Of a DNA stretch of 55,590 nucleotides, positions 17,421-45,701 are shown one piece after another. The notes beneath the pieces are model-generated. The model made no database searches, was not told the origin of the DNA, and was given only the letters and a program-made list of their open reading frames with translations. The stretch comes from Candidatus Saccharimonadota bacterium (lineage in GTDB: Bacteria > Patescibacteriota > Saccharimonadia > Saccharimonadales > Saccharimonadaceae). A program made the translations under genes and the position numbers. The stretch spans positions 1 to 55,590 of the forward strand of contig WRLC01000005.1 in the NCBI GenBank assembly GCA_009777795.1, in the 5' to 3' direction. The first letter of the stretch is position 1, and each line of letters opens with the position of its first letter.

Positions 17421-18275
17421 ATGACAAATCTCTGGCTTTTCACCGCTTTCGTAATCGGCGCCATTTTCGGCAGCTTCATCTGCTGCCAAGTCCGCCGCGT
17501 CATCGTCCGCGAAAAGCTCCGCGGCTTCAAAAAATTCAAACAAAAACCCTCCCACTGCGAACACTGCAACCGCCGCCTCCACTGGTGGGAAATGATTCCC
17601 GTTCTCTCATGGCTCTTCCTCCGCGGCAAATGCCGCTCCTGCAACGCCACTATCGGCCTCGTTGAGCTCCTCGCCGAGCTCGGCCTCGGCCTCGTCTTCG
17701 CCCTCGCCACCCGCCACTTCATCCCCGAGCTCACCACCGCCATGGCCATCATCCCCCAAATCTTCGCCATCCCCGCCTACTTCCTCTTCCTCACCCTCTC
17801 TTGCGGCCTCTTCGCCATCTTCATTTTCGACTTTCTCACAGGGGAGATGCCGACTCGTCTCTTGACTTTTTGCATCATCTGTGCTATACTGTTCATAGGT
17901 CTGGAGTGGGCCGCGGCGTGGGATGGCGGCACATTCTTCTGGGGTCTACCCCTATTAATGCTCGCCTCCGCCGCCGTCCTCTCCGGCTTCTACTTTGTTC
18001 TCTCCATCACCCCTGCCAGAACCTCCGGTAAAATTGTCGGCGACGGCGACTGGCTGGTCGCGCTCCCCATCGCCATCGTCCTCGCCCACCCCTTGCTCGC
18101 CATCACCAACCTCTTCCTCGCCAACATCATCGGCGCCATCATCGCCACCCCCTTCCTCATCACCAAAAAATGGCGCGCCACCACCCGCATCCCCTTCGCC
18201 CCCCTCCTCATCGTCGCTTTTTTCATCACTTTCTTCGCCCGGCCTTTCATTTTCGAAATGTTTATGCTAATATAA
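17421..18275 (+). CDS. pilD: Prepilin peptidase / N-methyltransferase
   Basis: A 284-residue membrane aspartyl protease. The N-terminal helix GAIFGSFICCQVRRV is followed by a zinc-binding domain with two cysteine pairs (CEHC about residue 48, CRSC about 73) of the methyltransferase part. Catalytic aspartates are in FDFLTGEMP and KIVGDGDW, and the remaining helices fill the C-terminus. It removes the basic leaders of the pilins encoded downstream and at 13.9 kb and methylates the new N-terminal residue. It leads the pseudopilin cluster. The start is set by the TATAAT box 10 nt upstream. Confidence 0.93.
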   Translation: MTNLWLFTAFVIGAIFGSFICCQVRRVIVREKLRGFKKFKQKPSHCEHCNRRLHWWEMIPVLSWLFLRGKCRSCNATIGLVELLAELGLGLVFALATRHFIPELTTAMAIIPQIFAIPAYFLFLTLSCGLFAIFIFDFLTGEMPTRLLTFCIICAILFIGLEWAAAWDGGTFFWGLPLLMLASAAVLSGFYFVLSITPARTSGKIVGDGDWLVALPIAIVLAHPLLAITNLFLANIIGAIIATPFLITKKWRATTRIPFAPLLIVAFFITFFARPFIFEMFMLI

Positions 18276-18276: not shown

Positions 18277-18296
18277 ATTATGATACGTGGGGTTTT

Positions 18297-19409
18297 ATGC
18301 GAATAAATCCGGAGGAACTCTCGGAGCCTACGGGCGAGAGCGAGGCGGCGTCCACCCATAACGATGGGCTGGACGACCGCCGTGTCCGACGGATTAATTC
18401 GCATCAAACCCACAAAGGTTTCACAATCATTGAGGTCCTGATGTTTCTCGCTATCACCGGCCTCCTCCTCACCGGCATGCTTGTCGGCACTGGGGCCAAC
18501 CTCGCCCGCGAACGCTACAATGACGGCGTCCGCACCGTCGAGGAGTTTCTTGCCCAACAATTCATGCTCGTCCAAAACCCCGAGCGCGACACCGACGGCA
18601 CCAACAACCGCGCCTGCATCGCCCGCACCAACACCGGCGGCAATCTCGCCATGGACGCCATCAACAGCTCCAACCTTAGCAGCATCAGCCACATCACCAC
18701 CACCGACGATCCCGCCGTCCTCGGCCCACTCGGTATCACCGGCAACTTCCGCGGCCGCTCCGACTGCTTAATTTATGGCCGCCTAATTGAGTTCTGGGTT
18801 GGCACCTCTAGCGACGACTACGCCGACAGCGGCCACTTACAACGTATCAGCGCCACCACCATCGTCGGCCGCGACTTGGAAGATTACGCCATCCGCAATA
18901 ACGACATCGACTACCACAGCGCCCTCCTTTCTTGGAACGACCAGCGCCTCATCTCTGAGGCCCGCATCGGTCGCGCCAACGACACCATCACTTTCGTCCC
19001 CGAGTGGGGGGTCTCGCTCGCTGGCTACACCCGAAGTGGCACCGACGGCATCGTCAGCGACCCCAGCCAACCGCAAGGCGCCATCCTCATCGCCCGCATG
19101 CCAATTTCCGGCTCGGTCCGCACCTTCATCATCACTAGCGGCGACACTCGCAGCATCGACACCCTCGCCATCTGCACCTCCAGCTCCCCTCCTAACGATT
19201 GCATTCAGGCCAACGGCACCTTCCTCTCCCTCGCCGACTCCACCGCCAACCGCTATTTCTGCACCATCCCCGACGGCAGCGGCATCTGGACCCCTACCCT
19301 CAAGATTATCCGTGTTCAACAAAACGTCGGTAATATCTCGGCCGTCTCTGTCCTCCCAACCGATACCGCAGCCGACGACGAAGGGACGCTCATCCAATGT
19401 CGTCAATGA
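18297..19409 (+). CDS. Pilin-like protein with leader lengthened by an inserted element
   Basis: A 370-residue prepilin: cleavage motif HKG|FTIIEVLMFLAITGLLLTGM, then a large globular domain with several cysteines. The leader is 41 residues, against the usual 6-20, because codons 2-35 come from a palindromic element. Removing 18300-18401 (102 bp, 34 codons) between the two ends of the inverted repeat would give ATG directly before CAT, that is MHQTHKG|FTIIE, a normal 7-residue leader. This strongly suggests an in-frame insertion at the second codon. Whether PilD still processes it is unknown. It heads a run of four pilin-like genes likely forming a minor-pilin tip complex. Confidence 0.8.
   Translation: MRINPEELSEPTGESEAASTHNDGLDDRRVRRINSHQTHKGFTIIEVLMFLAITGLLLTGMLVGTGANLARERYNDGVRTVEEFLAQQFMLVQNPERDTDGTNNRACIARTNTGGNLAMDAINSSNLSSISHITTTDDPAVLGPLGITGNFRGRSDCLIYGRLIEFWVGTSSDDYADSGHLQRISATTIVGRDLEDYAIRNNDIDYHSALLSWNDQRLISEARIGRANDTITFVPEWGVSLAGYTRSGTDGIVSDPSQPQGAILIARMPISGSVRTFIITSGDTRSIDTLAICTSSSPPNDCIQANGTFLSLADSTANRYFCTIPDGSGIWTPTLKIIRVQQNVGNISAVSVLPTDTAADDEGTLIQCRQ
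18298..18403. repeat. Palindromic element A in a pilin leader
   Basis: Terminal inverted repeats TGCGAATAAATCCG (18298-18311) and CGGATTAATTCGCA (18390-18403) match at 13 of 14 positions. Inside are two stem-loops: CTCTCG...CGAGAG around GAGCCTACGGG, and GGCGGCGTCCACCC paired with GGGCTGGACGACCGCC. Core sequences CGGAGCCT, GGGCGAGA and GTGTCCGA are shared with elements B and C. Confidence 0.8.
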
Positions 19410-28023: not shown

Positions 28024-30666
28024 TCACGACTCTTGCTGTTTTTTGCGCCTCCTAAACCATATCAGCCAAATTGACAACCCCGCCAGCACCCCAACCATCG
28101 CCAGCACCACCAACAGCCTTGTATCACGCCGCCCCTTCCGACTCGCGTTCGGCACTTCCACCTCAACCTCTGACTCCGAGAAGTTTTCGTAGGCCGGTCC
28201 TCGCGAATCTAGTCCTGAGGAACTTTCCGAGTCCTCTAAGTCTGCTTCCTCAGACCGCTCGGAGCCTGCGGGCGAGAAAGAGACGCGCCCGTCCTGTGAC
28301 GACAGGGTCGGGCGACGTCGTGTCTGAGGTAGCAGGCCTGAGGGCTCGGAAGCTATCGAGTCAGTCGACGTCGTGTCCGAAGGGTCAGTTTGCGATGACT
28401 CGTCGTTCGAGCCAGTCGAATCGCCCTCACCCGTCTCATCGTCTTCGTCCTCCTCCTGCTCCACCGCCGCCAAGGCTGCCAAAGCCTCACTCCAATCAAA
28501 CTCCTCTTCCACCTCTCCCGTATAGAAACTCCGCCGCCCATTATGCGCCTCCCCAAGATGTTCAGAAAGATAGCCATCCGCCAAGTATCCCTCGGGCGTA
28601 ATCAGCTGCAACCGGACCACCACATCCTTACTAAAGTCAACGTCGTAAACCCTAACATCATTAATCACTCCCGTAGCTTTTCCAAAATAACCTATCGGCA
28701 CGTCGTTAATTGACAGCAGGTAAGCACCGGCCCCCAGCGACTGCGGCCAGTTCACATATAGATACTCTATGCCCTCGTCGTCTACCATCCTACTAGCATT
28801 GACCCACATTTCGCCTATGAATGCATCCGGCCCCGCCGGCTCGGCACTGATATGGACTGTCGCCGAGATTGTTTTCGACAAACCATTCCTGTCGACTACT
28901 CGGGCCTGCATATAGTGCGAGCCAACCTTGTCGAAAGCCTGCGTCCATATCAAGCTCGCCTGCCCCATCGCCTCACCCGAAATCTCAAACACCCCATCGC
29001 CATCAAAGTCCCAATCGGCATATGCTATTTCGGCCGCAATGCCCGTTGAGCCTGTCGCGTCAAATGTTATCTCCTGCCCCACCGTCGCATAATAGCTCGA
29101 GCTTTTTAATCGCGCTATCGGTCGGCTAGTTATTTCTTCCAACATCTGCGACAACGATTTTCCATCGCCTATGATATCTATCACCTCGCCCGATGTCAAC
29201 TCGGCCAGCTGCTTCAACTGCTCTAGCTGCTCTGGATGGAGTTCTCTTGGCTCTGGGCCGTACTCATGTAATAGCTTCGCGATATAGATATTTACTGGGT
29301 TCAAGGCAATGGACGCCTGCTGTACATCCTCCATCGTCCAGCCACTCGCCCGGTCCGGATTGTGAAAACCCGCGTCGGTAAACACCACCAGCGCCTTCGA
29401 CGCCCCTTCTCGCCACTCGAGCTCTTCATATGCCGTTTTTATCCCATGCAGCAGAGCCTCATTGGCATCGCCTCCGCCCAAAGCGCTCAACCCCATCAAT
29501 CTCTGCCATACTTCATCTATATCCGTACATGTTTCAAAATCACACAAAACTCTTGATGGCGTGCCGTTAAACAAATATCCCAGATCCCGATATTCAACTA
29601 TCGCCACTCGCCCCCCGCTATTCAGCACTCGCTCCGCCAGACCTCTGACCTCCTGTATCACCAACGCAAACTCATTAAAACTTTCGTTCATCGACCCCGT
29701 CGTATCCAGCAGAATTGCCACATCCTGCCCGGGCGTAATCGTATTTGGCGAGTAGCCCATAAAGTCCGGCATAAACAATGCTGGCAGTTGAGCTCGCACC
29801 GCCCCCAAAATCCTCTGCGCCCCATCCTTGATTAACCCATTTCTGATATAAGCCTCATGCCCGCCCCACGCCAAAGGCTGCAAGGTGTTCCTCGTACTGC
29901 CACAAATTAGATCTTCCGCGTTGCAATATGTCGCCACCTTGTTCGTTTGGAATTTCTGCAAATATGGCCGCCGCCCGCCCAAGACTCCCTCATGCGTTTG
30001 ACACTTCGGCACATGCCCGCGGTATCCCGATAGCCCCTCTCCCTTGCAGGCCGGCGGAATCTGTCGCACCCCACTTGGCGACCACGACGCCCCCTCTGGC
30101 AAATAAAGTTTCGGATCGCCATAAAGCACCGAGTACAACACCTGCGTATCAATCGCCTCTGGCAACTTCACTAACGTGTCGCCAATCACTTGCGCCCCTT
30201 GCGAATAACCGCCCAGCGCGAAATAAGTCCTCGGGCAGGCCACCAGTCGCGTATTGATGTAATTTTGCAGCTCGTCCACCCCGAGCTTCACACTGTCGCC
30301 ATATGCAAACGCCGCCCCCGCACTCAACTTAGCCCCCGCCACCACACCTAGCCCCGACAAATTCGGCTCAAATACTTTTTGCGCCGGATAGCCGTTTACA
30401 CTCGTGCCCAGCTCGTAGAATCTCGCCACCCCTTTGAATTCGGCCGCCTCCAGCTGCTGCCGGATGTCTCTCTCAAACGCCCGATATTCCGCCGCCCCCA
30501 TCCCCGATCCCGACCCGCGCGCCCAAATAAACTCCACATCATAACACCCGCTCGTCGGCGCTGCACTAGTATTTTTTGGGTTGCTTGTGTTGATTGCGAC
30601 TCCAGTTAGCACAACCGCAACCAAACAAGCCGCGCTAACCCGCAATTTCTGCTTTACTTTTTCCAT
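28024..30666 (-). CDS. Exported cutinase-like / VWA / PKD surface protein
   Basis: About 880 residues; start chosen at MEKVKQKLRV, which begins a signal peptide (to about 36). Residues 40-290 match actinobacterial cutinase-like serine esterases: CYDVEFIWARGSGSG, nucleophile elbow GYSQGA (Ser155), CNAEDLIC (Asp252) and HEAYI (His270), with paired cysteines. A VWA domain follows (about 314-510) with MIDAS-like DTTGS (321-325), then a PKD-like domain (about 530-640). An acidic low-complexity stalk (partly encoded by palindromic element B) precedes a C-terminal helix and RRRKKQQES. The topology is surface-anchored. Cleaving host-envelope esters, such as mycolate or lipid esters, is inference. Confidence 0.82.
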   Translation of the reverse strand: MEKVKQKLRVSAACLVAVVLTGVAINTSNPKNTSAAPTSGCYDVEFIWARGSGSGMGAAEYRAFERDIRQQLEAAEFKGVARFYELGTSVNGYPAQKVFEPNLSGLGVVAGAKLSAGAAFAYGDSVKLGVDELQNYINTRLVACPRTYFALGGYSQGAQVIGDTLVKLPEAIDTQVLYSVLYGDPKLYLPEGASWSPSGVRQIPPACKGEGLSGYRGHVPKCQTHEGVLGGRRPYLQKFQTNKVATYCNAEDLICGSTRNTLQPLAWGGHEAYIRNGLIKDGAQRILGAVRAQLPALFMPDFMGYSPNTITPGQDVAILLDTTGSMNESFNEFALVIQEVRGLAERVLNSGGRVAIVEYRDLGYLFNGTPSRVLCDFETCTDIDEVWQRLMGLSALGGGDANEALLHGIKTAYEELEWREGASKALVVFTDAGFHNPDRASGWTMEDVQQASIALNPVNIYIAKLLHEYGPEPRELHPEQLEQLKQLAELTSGEVIDIIGDGKSLSQMLEEITSRPIARLKSSSYYATVGQEITFDATGSTGIAAEIAYADWDFDGDGVFEISGEAMGQASLIWTQAFDKVGSHYMQARVVDRNGLSKTISATVHISAEPAGPDAFIGEMWVNASRMVDDEGIEYLYVNWPQSLGAGAYLLSINDVPIGYFGKATGVINDVRVYDVDFSKDVVVRLQLITPEGYLADGYLSEHLGEAHNGRRSFYTGEVEEEFDWSEALAALAAVEQEEDEDDETGEGDSTGSNDESSQTDPSDTTSTDSIASEPSGLLPQTRRRPTLSSQDGRVSFSPAGSERSEEADLEDSESSSGLDSRGPAYENFSESEVEVEVPNASRKGRRDTRLLVVLAMVGVLAGLSIWLIWFRRRKKQQES
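28223..28353. repeat. Palindromic element B in the cutinase/VWA gene
   Basis: Imperfect terminal inverted repeats of about 32 bp (28223-28255 and 28322-28353); the inner 13 bp TGCTTCCTCAGAC/GTCTGAGGTAGCA match at 12 of 13. Two internal stem-loops: CTCG...CGAG around GAGCCTGCGGG, and CGCGCCCGTCCTGT paired with ACAGGGTCGGGCGACG. It encodes a disordered stretch near the C-terminal stalk. Confidence 0.8.
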
Positions 30667-30824
30667 ACTTTCCAGCCTAGCACCCTCTCGCCCAGAACTA
30701 AGCATAAGGACAAACGGTTATGTTTACTTTTGACCTCTAAAAGCCCCAGAGGCCGCAAACTTTTTGAAAAAATCGCCTATTTTGCCCTTGACACCCCCGC
30801 TTTCTTTCCAATTTCTCCGTGTGA

Positions 30825-43901: not shown

Positions 43902-45701
43902 TTATGCCCTATCAATCACCACATCAACCACCCGCCCCTCCACATGCGGCGCCCCAAACTCCGAATAAACCGCCCGAAAATCAAACTCATACCTATCCAC
44001 CGCCAAATCCCCCCACTTTTCCGCCCCATGCCACGCGCAAAGCTCAAACGGCCGCCCCTCCGCGTCGCCAATTTTCAAACTCACATGCTCCTTCGCCTTG
44101 CCCATCGTCCGCCTCTCATACAACCGCCCCCGCACCCGCAGAATCGGCTCCCGATTCCCCTGCCCAAATGGCGCCAGCTCCTGCACCTCCCGCCAAAAAT
44201 CCACCGTCAACTCCTCCACATTCTCCACCTCAATATCCGCCCGCTCCCGCAAAAACCGCTCTTGATTAGTTAACCCCAAACTCCGATAATATTTATCCAA
44301 CGCCGCCCGCACCGCCTCAAAATTATCCGCCGAAATACTCATCCCGCCCGCCGCCGCATGCCCGCCGCCCTTTTCCACCAGCCCCAACTCCCGCAAATGC
44401 GAAATCGCCTTCGCACAACTAAATTCCCCAAAACTCCGCGCACTGCATTTCAGCCCCTCGCCCGTTTCCGTAAACACAAAAACCGGCTTTTCATGCTGTT
44501 CGACCAATTTTCCCGCAATCAGCCCAATCAGCCCCTCATGCCATTTTCCTCGCGCCACCACCACTGTTAAATCGTTTTTTACTCCAAGAGTAAGCTTCAG
44601 ACTTTCCAGCGCTTTTCGTTGCTGGGCCTTCCGCTCGTCGTTCAAATCCTCCAACTGCATCGCTAGCTCACTCGCCTCCATCGCGTCGTCCGTCAAAAGT
44701 AGCTCCAGCGCCTTTCGCGGGCTCTCCAACCGCCCACTCGCATTAATTTTCGGCCCCACCACAAATCCCAAAGCATAAGCATCAATCCTTTTCAAATCGC
44801 GCGTCAACTCCCGCAGCCCCCGCCACTTGCTTTTCGCCATCACCTTCAACCCATACCACACCAAAATCCGATTATCCCCCAAAAGCGGCGCCTGATCGCA
44901 CACTGTCCCCAGCGCCACCAAATCCAGCAGCCACTTCGTCCACTCAGGTGATTTGTATTGTTGGCGAGTCCCTCGCAAATCCGGTGCAGAGGAACTTTCG
45001 GACCGCGGCAGCGGGAGAACGAGACGCGCCCGTCCTGTGGCGACAGGGTCGGGCGACGGCGTGTCCGATGCACCGGTTTGCGGGGAACTCGCTAGAGCCC
45101 GCACCAGCTGGAACGCCACGCCGACCCCGGCCAGCTCGGAAAACCCATATTTACTATCCCGCCGCTTCGGGTTAATCACCGCCACCGCCTCTGGTAGCGC
45201 CCCATCTTCGCTCACCTCATGATGGTCCGTGATAATCACATCCACCCCCCGCTCCTTCAGCCGCCGCACCACCGCAAAATCCCGACTCCCACAATCCACC
45301 GTAATCAATAATTTCACATCCGCCGCCAAAGTTTCCAAAATCCGCTCCGGCAAACCATAACCATCCCGCACCCGCTCCGGCAAATCCCACCGCACCTCCG
45401 CCCCCAAATGCCCCAGTCCCCGCACCAACACCGCCGTCGCCGTCACCCCATCCGCATCATAATCCCCAAACACCAAAATCTTCTCCCCCGCCTTTATCGC
45501 CCGCCGAATCCGCTTCACCGCCTTCGCCATGTCCGGCAAATCTCCCGCCGCCCCCAAATCCTCATACCTCGGATTCAAAAAACTCTCATCAATTCCCCTT
45601 GATTTTAGGAGTTTGATAAATAGTGGACTTAAAGTTTTTGATCGAGGGGTGGTGCCCGGCGGGGAGGACCCGGGCGACAGGACCCCGAGCTGTAATTTCA
45701 T
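43902..45701 (-). CDS. recJ: Single-strand-specific exonuclease RecJ with inserted element
   Basis: 599 residues. DHH phosphoesterase motifs: VFGDYDADGVTATAVL, LLITVDCGSRDF, IITDHHEV and LLDLVALGTVCDQAPL; DHHA1 block GGGHAAAGGMSI; C-terminal OB fold. RecJ degrades 5'-ended single strands in repair and recombination. Between QLVRAL and QQYKSPEW lie 43 extra residues encoded by palindromic element C, exactly 129 bp, so removing it leaves a continuous RecJ loop. It follows the winged-helix gene with an ATGA overlap. An exact 15-bp palindrome is at 44579. Confidence 0.93.
   Translation of the reverse strand: MKLQLGVLSPGSSPPGTTPRSKTLSPLFIKLLKSRGIDESFLNPRYEDLGAAGDLPDMAKAVKRIRRAIKAGEKILVFGDYDADGVTATAVLVRGLGHLGAEVRWDLPERVRDGYGLPERILETLAADVKLLITVDCGSRDFAVVRRLKERGVDVIITDHHEVSEDGALPEAVAVINPKRRDSKYGFSELAGVGVAFQLVRALASSPQTGASDTPSPDPVATGRARLVLPLPRSESSSAPDLRGTRQQYKSPEWTKWLLDLVALGTVCDQAPLLGDNRILVWYGLKVMAKSKWRGLRELTRDLKRIDAYALGFVVGPKINASGRLESPRKALELLLTDDAMEASELAMQLEDLNDERKAQQRKALESLKLTLGVKNDLTVVVARGKWHEGLIGLIAGKLVEQHEKPVFVFTETGEGLKCSARSFGEFSCAKAISHLRELGLVEKGGGHAAAGGMSISADNFEAVRAALDKYYRSLGLTNQERFLRERADIEVENVEELTVDFWREVQELAPFGQGNREPILRVRGRLYERRTMGKAKEHVSLKIGDAEGRPFELCAWHGAEKWGDLAVDRYEFDFRAVYSEFGAPHVEGRVVDVVIDRA
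44579..44593. repeat. 15-bp palindrome, exact copy
   Basis: TTACTCCAAGAGTAA in recJ, read on the minus strand as LTLGVK. Confidence 0.8.
44964..45092. repeat. Palindromic element C inside recJ
   Basis: Terminal inverted repeats of about 25 bp (44964-44988 and 45069-45092; ends GCGAGT/ACTCGC, inner CCGGTGCA/TGCACCGG). Internal stem CGCGCCCGTCCTGT with ACAGGGTCGGGCGACG is shared with element B. The 129-bp length is a whole number of codons. Elements B and C are read in different frames in their host proteins. Confidence 0.82.

Follow-up and report, generated by a model that had tools for sequence, protein, structure and literature searches.

Two sources describe protein-coding palindromes for Rickettsia and Wolbachia. 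The Rickettsia palindromic elements (RPEs) measure roughly 100–150 bp and occur in many copies, a large share of them lying in frame within protein genes that are unrelated to one another, DNA polymerase III and tRNA-related genes among them; different members may occupy orthologous sites (PMC3767692, PMC10969869). The palindrome considered here lies in the leader of a pilin gene in the window, the whole 55,590-nucleotide stretch of DNA analysed (contig WRLC01000005.1, assembly GCA_009777795.1, Candidatus Saccharimonadota bacterium; this genome is G000 below, and G001–G003 are its congeners). It is read, with a probability of about 0.8, as a copy of a family of short, non-autonomous, mobile palindromic elements that displaced the pilin start, with ATG 18297 as the likely new one.

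The likeness to RPEs lies in length (119–125 bp), in copy number (18 copies in 559 kb), in a conserved fold and in the location of 17 of 18 copies inside ORFs without destroying them, in the pilin only by way of a candidate new start codon. The differences are the host phylum (Saccharibacteria, not Rickettsiales, with model matches in one family of the order), the use of at least four reading frames where an RPE family has one conserved peptide, and arms that differ between copies. The RPE1 model (TIGR01045) matched 0 of 1 genome in a search that had no working positive control (0 of 14 controls positive), and no RPE model is among the NCBIfam matches listed for nine host proteins. The element works like RPEs but is not classed with them, given its different host phylum and coded peptide and the lack of a detected sequence link.

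REP elements are short palindromes present in many copies and mobilised by Y1 (RAYT) transposases. The Saccharibacteria element shares the palindromic form and the multiplicity, but it is much longer and mostly intragenic, and a search of 20 genomes for the Y1 domain (Y1_Tnp, PF01797) gave 0 positives against 5 among 14 controls, the own assembly being only 63% complete; by this test it is not a REP/RAYT system. Bacterial MITEs such as ERIC are small, non-autonomous and sometimes in frame within genes (PMC10969869). The element matches them in size, in its non-autonomous character and in frame-keeping within genes; it differs in that no target-site duplication is seen over 44 copies (1.80; shuffles, 1.83) and in that its terminal sequences are unlike between copies, and by the duplication and terminal-repeat tests it is not a classical MITE. 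PARCELs are coding repeats of palindromic form that show signs of mobility and make up tandem 25-residue arrays in ORFs without assigned functions (PMC2996958), whereas the Saccharibacteria elements are single insertions, many of them in housekeeping proteins. Among open-licence papers, none was found to describe an element of this kind in Saccharibacteria.

The spread of the element is presumably selfish. Reduced genomes packed with genes can harbour selfish DNA within those genes; this looks like a recurrent solution, here with an unrelated family in ultra-small Saccharibacteria, and the main interest lies in the element family rather than in the pilin site.

The pilin locus and its ancestral start

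The features of the locus and the two further copies in the window are as follows.

17421..18275 (+): upstream ORF, a putative prepilin peptidase judging from its CxxC pairs; its stop lies 4 bases before ATG 18280
18280..18306 (+): ancestral start codon, placed by a by-eye upstream alignment with G001, G002 and G003, now heading an 8-codon ORF (MIRGVLCE-stop)
18290..18411 (+): palindromic element, the best-fitting whole inserted unit, 122 bp; covariance-model match of 130 bits over all 122 positions
18290..18311 (+): left arm, copy-specific, holding ATG 18297; pairs with the right arm at 20 of 22 bases
18312..18389 (+): conserved core, made up of a side hairpin (18318–18340) and a long hairpin with stem CGTCCA/TGGACG and loop AACG
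18390..18411 (+): right arm, from arm complementarity
18297..19409 (+): present pilin ORF, 370 aa, start codon within the element, N_methyl motif at residues 39–62
28227..28349 (+): second copy, antisense and in frame in ORF 28024–30705 (-), a VWA-domain protein
44967..45089 (+): third copy, antisense and in frame in ORF 43902–45701 (-), RecJ

The ATG at 18297–18299 is followed by CGAATAAATCCG (18300–18311); CGGATTAATTCG occupies 18390–18401 and CATCAAACCCAC begins at 18402. From the upstream stop to 18297 the pilin frame holds no other ATG, GTG or TTG, and 18297, in the left arm, is the only such codon upstream of the mature part. The ORF is open across the element, giving a leader of 41 residues if ATG 18297 is used. 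The original prediction had read the letters at 18297–18430 correctly: the piece it proposed to remove, 18300–18401, is 102 bp or 34 codons, the undeleted leader has 41 residues, and the join reads MHQTHK/GFTIIE (here and below, a slash marks the end of a leader or a junction).

The DNA before the start is nearly identical across G000–G003 and maps the ancestral ATG to 18280; the earlier idea that the element entered just after the start codon, at 18297, is not supported, and neither is that of an unbroken frame: reading from 18280 now gives MIRGVLCE before the stop TAA (18304–18306). As the element is 122 bp long (2 mod 3), its insertion would put the old start out of frame. Deletion of 18290–18411 yields MIRDK/GFTIIE from ATG 18280, a leader like those of the congeners (MKRVR/GFTIIE in G002, MRRV/GFTIIE in G003), and whole-unit insertion corresponds to the empty allele ATGATACGTGACAAAGG.

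The palindrome is absent from all eight pilin orthologues with an N-terminal region, and leaders in the five from other genera are 5–8 residues long. This supports an inserted palindromic element in the prepilin leader. Relatives that lack it and still have a long, unrelated leader had been named as evidence to the contrary, and G001, with MKRVPEVKDNMRNHKK/GFTIIE (16 residues) and no palindrome, goes part of the way towards that. Because the congener pilins are only 63–74% identical to this one, the junction given here is a reconstruction that should hold approximately rather than base for base. ATG 18297, inside the element, is likely the new pilin start; the locus is known from one MAG, and an indel error near 18280 may be present.

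A mechanism can be proposed. The element would insert mostly into genes of one Saccharibacteria family, and insertions would survive where about 120 bp can be read at a tolerant place, such as a loop, an inter-domain linker or a cleaved leader peptide. At the pilin, insertion would have pushed the old start 18280 out of frame, and the ATG of the left arm, being in the pilin frame, would have become the start, leaving a leader largely coded by the element. Translation would then run through the element from ATG 18297, and the 41-residue leader would presumably be cleaved off by the prepilin peptidase.

Copies, fold and host genes

DNA similarity finds four copies in the own genome; the covariance model R1, built from 11 copies, finds the full 18, three of them within the window. 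Among 100 genomes including the own, similarity places copies in four, and an exact pattern scan of the genome contigs matched only 2 contigs. R1 matches occur in at least 120 of 295 genomes of the same taxonomic family, in 14 of 61 genera, with up to 12 candidates scored per genome. In a sample of the order, scored in the same way, at least 50 of 294 genomes have matches; all 50 belong to that family, and no match fell outside it. An Rfam search returned 0 matches at E up to 1.

The fold is conserved, and its pairs covary heavily. In alignment A1 (11 copies), both partners vary in 36 of 49 pairs, and covariation is 0.481 against 0.192 when shuffled. In A2 (27 copies), the figures are 41 of 49 and 0.616 against 0.196, with 0 of 500 shuffles as high; A2 combines the pilin copy with 26 that come from other genomes and are absent from A1; the A2 copies were found by the model and so lean towards it. 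Slid controls give far lower values. Arms and core behave differently: within a copy the arms pair at 0.82 (own genome, n = 18) or 0.88 (the 26 others), while between copies left-arm agreement is 0.40 (own) and 0.33 (others; shuffled 0.34) and core agreement is 0.75 and 0.77. Three own-genome copies (L146, L150 and L153) have a common arm sequence at unrelated sites. In another (L155, G000:C2:9196–9319) the arms do not pair (0.32), the left resembling one subfamily and the right another, as if recombined.

Of the 18 own-genome copies, 17 lie in ORFs (8 sense, 9 antisense), and L153 is intergenic. A Pfam family was found in 16 of 17 scanned ORF pieces, the exception being the one at intergenic L153. 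The hosts are pilin, FemAB, LeuRS, TilS (two copies, one ORF scanned), Mur ligase, ValRS, a pyridine nucleotide oxidoreductase, Obg (ObgE), a UvrD-type helicase (two copies), DnaX, the VWA protein, RecJ, Der, a sortase and a class I synthetase, probably IleRS. NCBIfam matches above cut-off were obtained for ValRS, TilS, RecJ, Der and DnaX, and a truncated LeuRS piece falls just below.

The frame is open through the element in all 16 coding own-genome copies besides the pilin. Four reading frames are in use among the 17 coding copies (by reading), which rules out one common frame and therefore a single conserved peptide. A tuned absence of stops is likewise not supported: 2.94 of 6 frames are open per element against 2.62 in shuffles. 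Since the elements are not unusually stop-free, the kept frames probably reflect which insertions survive. The copies offer natural tolerance maps for insertions of 30–40 residues in aminoacyl-tRNA synthetases, GTPases and MnmA, and they are a warning for annotation, where odd leaders and loops in these genomes should be viewed with care.

The inserted unit and competing readings

Sites where orthologues are filled in some species and empty in others indicate what is inserted. For MnmA, a search of 60 genomes returned 30 loci, which were read. The loop between the GHYAR and KDQTY motifs has 10–14 residues in 17 of 30 species and 36–71 in the other 13; a model match lies inside 10 of these 13 long loops, and 3 are without one. 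The gain in size fits the whole palindrome, as in G268, where a 52-residue loop minus 41 leaves 11. By hand count, the loops of G268, G347, G260, G362 and G299 become empty-like only when the whole palindrome is subtracted, and subtracting the core and one arm leaves a non-empty length. At MnmA the inserted unit is therefore the whole palindrome, and at the pilin the same unit fits best. This MnmA loop (L101–L130), with inserts in 13 of 30 species, is a hotspot or else a site that tolerates insertion very well.

Other genes repeat the pattern. The Mur ligase carries the element in the own genome and lacks it in the five orthologues read. In the Der linker between the GTPase domains, G000, G001 and G003 have a copy, G004 a reversed copy, G002 another palindrome and G005 none; G001 Der has a second copy further on, with a core one base off the first.

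The strongest competitor, itself unlikely, is that only the core and one arm were inserted, the other arm being native sequence from which an inverted copy was made during insertion (fold-back copying). It would explain why the arms are copy-specific yet complementary, and at the pilin it works arithmetically: with an insert at 18289–18389, the ancestral sequence would have been MIRRINSHQTHK/G, read in frame from ATG 18280. It is opposed by the five MnmA loops, empty-like only minus the whole palindrome, and by the common arm sequence of L146, L150 and L153 at unrelated sites of one genome. Inverted duplication of the target was rejected on related grounds, both arms being extra in MnmA and some arms being common to several sites.

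At the pilin, the edges of the whole palindrome follow from pairing. The hairpin is exceptionally strong, with a DNA fold of -43.6 kcal/mol (z -8.5) and an RNA fold of -74.1 (z -10.0), and 0 of 200 shuffles were as good in either case. The arms run on through ATG/CAT to GGGTTT...AAACCC, 10 bases past the 102-bp cut on each side, with GGGTTTTATGCGAATAAATCCG pairing with CGGATTAATTCGCATCAAACCC at 20 of 22 bases. Over the 18 own-genome copies, the first four steps outside the unit pair in 11, 14, 9 and 6 of 18 and later steps in 5–10, and chance level is reached after about 2 bases; in the pilin copy the first outside pair is a non-standard G/A. Because outside pairing drops to chance within a few bases, the unit is 18290–18411, with edges good to about two bases in general.

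These edges bear on the reading first put forward for the locus, now very improbable, in which a 102-bp element entered right after the pilin start codon, kept the frame and interrupted an ancestral leader MHQTHK/G. It implies an empty allele ATGCATCAAACCC with a start region ATG/CATCAAACCC, and its merits are an in-frame join and a 6-residue leader of normal length. Against it, the hairpin runs past 18300 and 18401, other copies are about 119–125 bp long, and the ancestral start is at 18280, from which the 102-bp deletion reads MIRGVLCIKPTKVSQSLR and gives no pilin. Mirrored cuts in any palindrome produce a clean-looking join, the 102-bp cut being one among many, and a site resolved to the base as ATG/CAT is not supported. 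The original prediction chose the right place, a real pilin with an RPE-like palindrome inserted in its prepilin leader, and drew the wrong edges, since the arms are longer than it allowed.

Slightly less probable still is removal of the hairpin from the mRNA, or its skipping by the ribosome, with the arms bringing the flanks together and a protein made without the element. A conserved, covarying fold inside coding regions would suit this. Such a process needs no open frames, yet they are open in the 16 non-pilin coding copies of G000 and in 30 of 30 MnmA ORFs, and the old pilin start has lost the pilin frame and runs into a stop. Least probable of all is an immobile regulatory RNA structure of the pilin mRNA, which the position at the gene start and the very stable fold might suggest, but the same family sits mid-gene in 14 other, unrelated genes, is absent from the pilin orthologues and has no Rfam match.

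Possible core exchange, and mobility

Cores and arms may have separate histories in the mobile family. In G268, the cores of two sites agree at 75 of 75 bases, and their arms are unrelated, with 13 of 24 positions matching against a null mean of 10.5. At the second of these sites, the core in G357 is a different one and lies in the opposite orientation, and the arms flanking it are recognisably related to those of G268 (16 and 17 of 24, where the 99th percentile of the null is 17). At the LeuRS site, the G002 core matches another G002 core at 51 of 52 bases and the same-site G000 core at 46 of 52, and the right arms match across genomes at 19 of 24. These arm matches are modest and constitute a lead from two sites, which suggests that cores are exchanged between sites while arms stay.

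A two-part system can be proposed tentatively, and is on balance doubtful: the core would be swapped within a genome in either orientation, and the site-bound arms would stay, keep pairing and drift. Under this model the palindromes would act as docking sites for a homing cassette; alternatively, gene conversion would homogenise the cores. Comparison of G268 with G357 gives only partly clean empty sites, with identity of about 71–85% over most of both contigs; across the family, the many species pairs with empty and filled sites offer a route to learn how the element moves.

The search for an autonomous partner covered Y1 transposase and reverse transcriptase. The former is rejected as mobiliser by its count of 0/20 genomes. 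The latter is rejected as well: it occurs in 9 of 20 genomes, 6 of 12 with the element versus 3 of 8 without, an occurrence unrelated to the element. The own genome has two reverse transcriptase domains (G000:C2:109828–110427 and C1:121208–121879, in ORFs of 312 and 398 aa), which we take to be possible diversity-generating retroelements.

Several arrangements were seen alongside the single copies. Adjacent pairs in opposite orientation occur at G286:C23:5647–5890, G286:C69:3840–4084, G235:C11:152683–152927, G221:C2:57208–57456 and G027:C24:3400–3662. A different palindromic insert, perhaps of another family, is found in the G002 Der linker (L040) and beside the LeuRS copy (L011:1–150); the two have a common right part like CAGAGACAGGACCCC or CGGAGACAGGACCCC. 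At two sites in G002 (L010:1400–1560 and L011:1–115) the core is of a derived type that contains an additional inner piece, CTGCTGTAGCC...GCAGGCGAGACGTCC.
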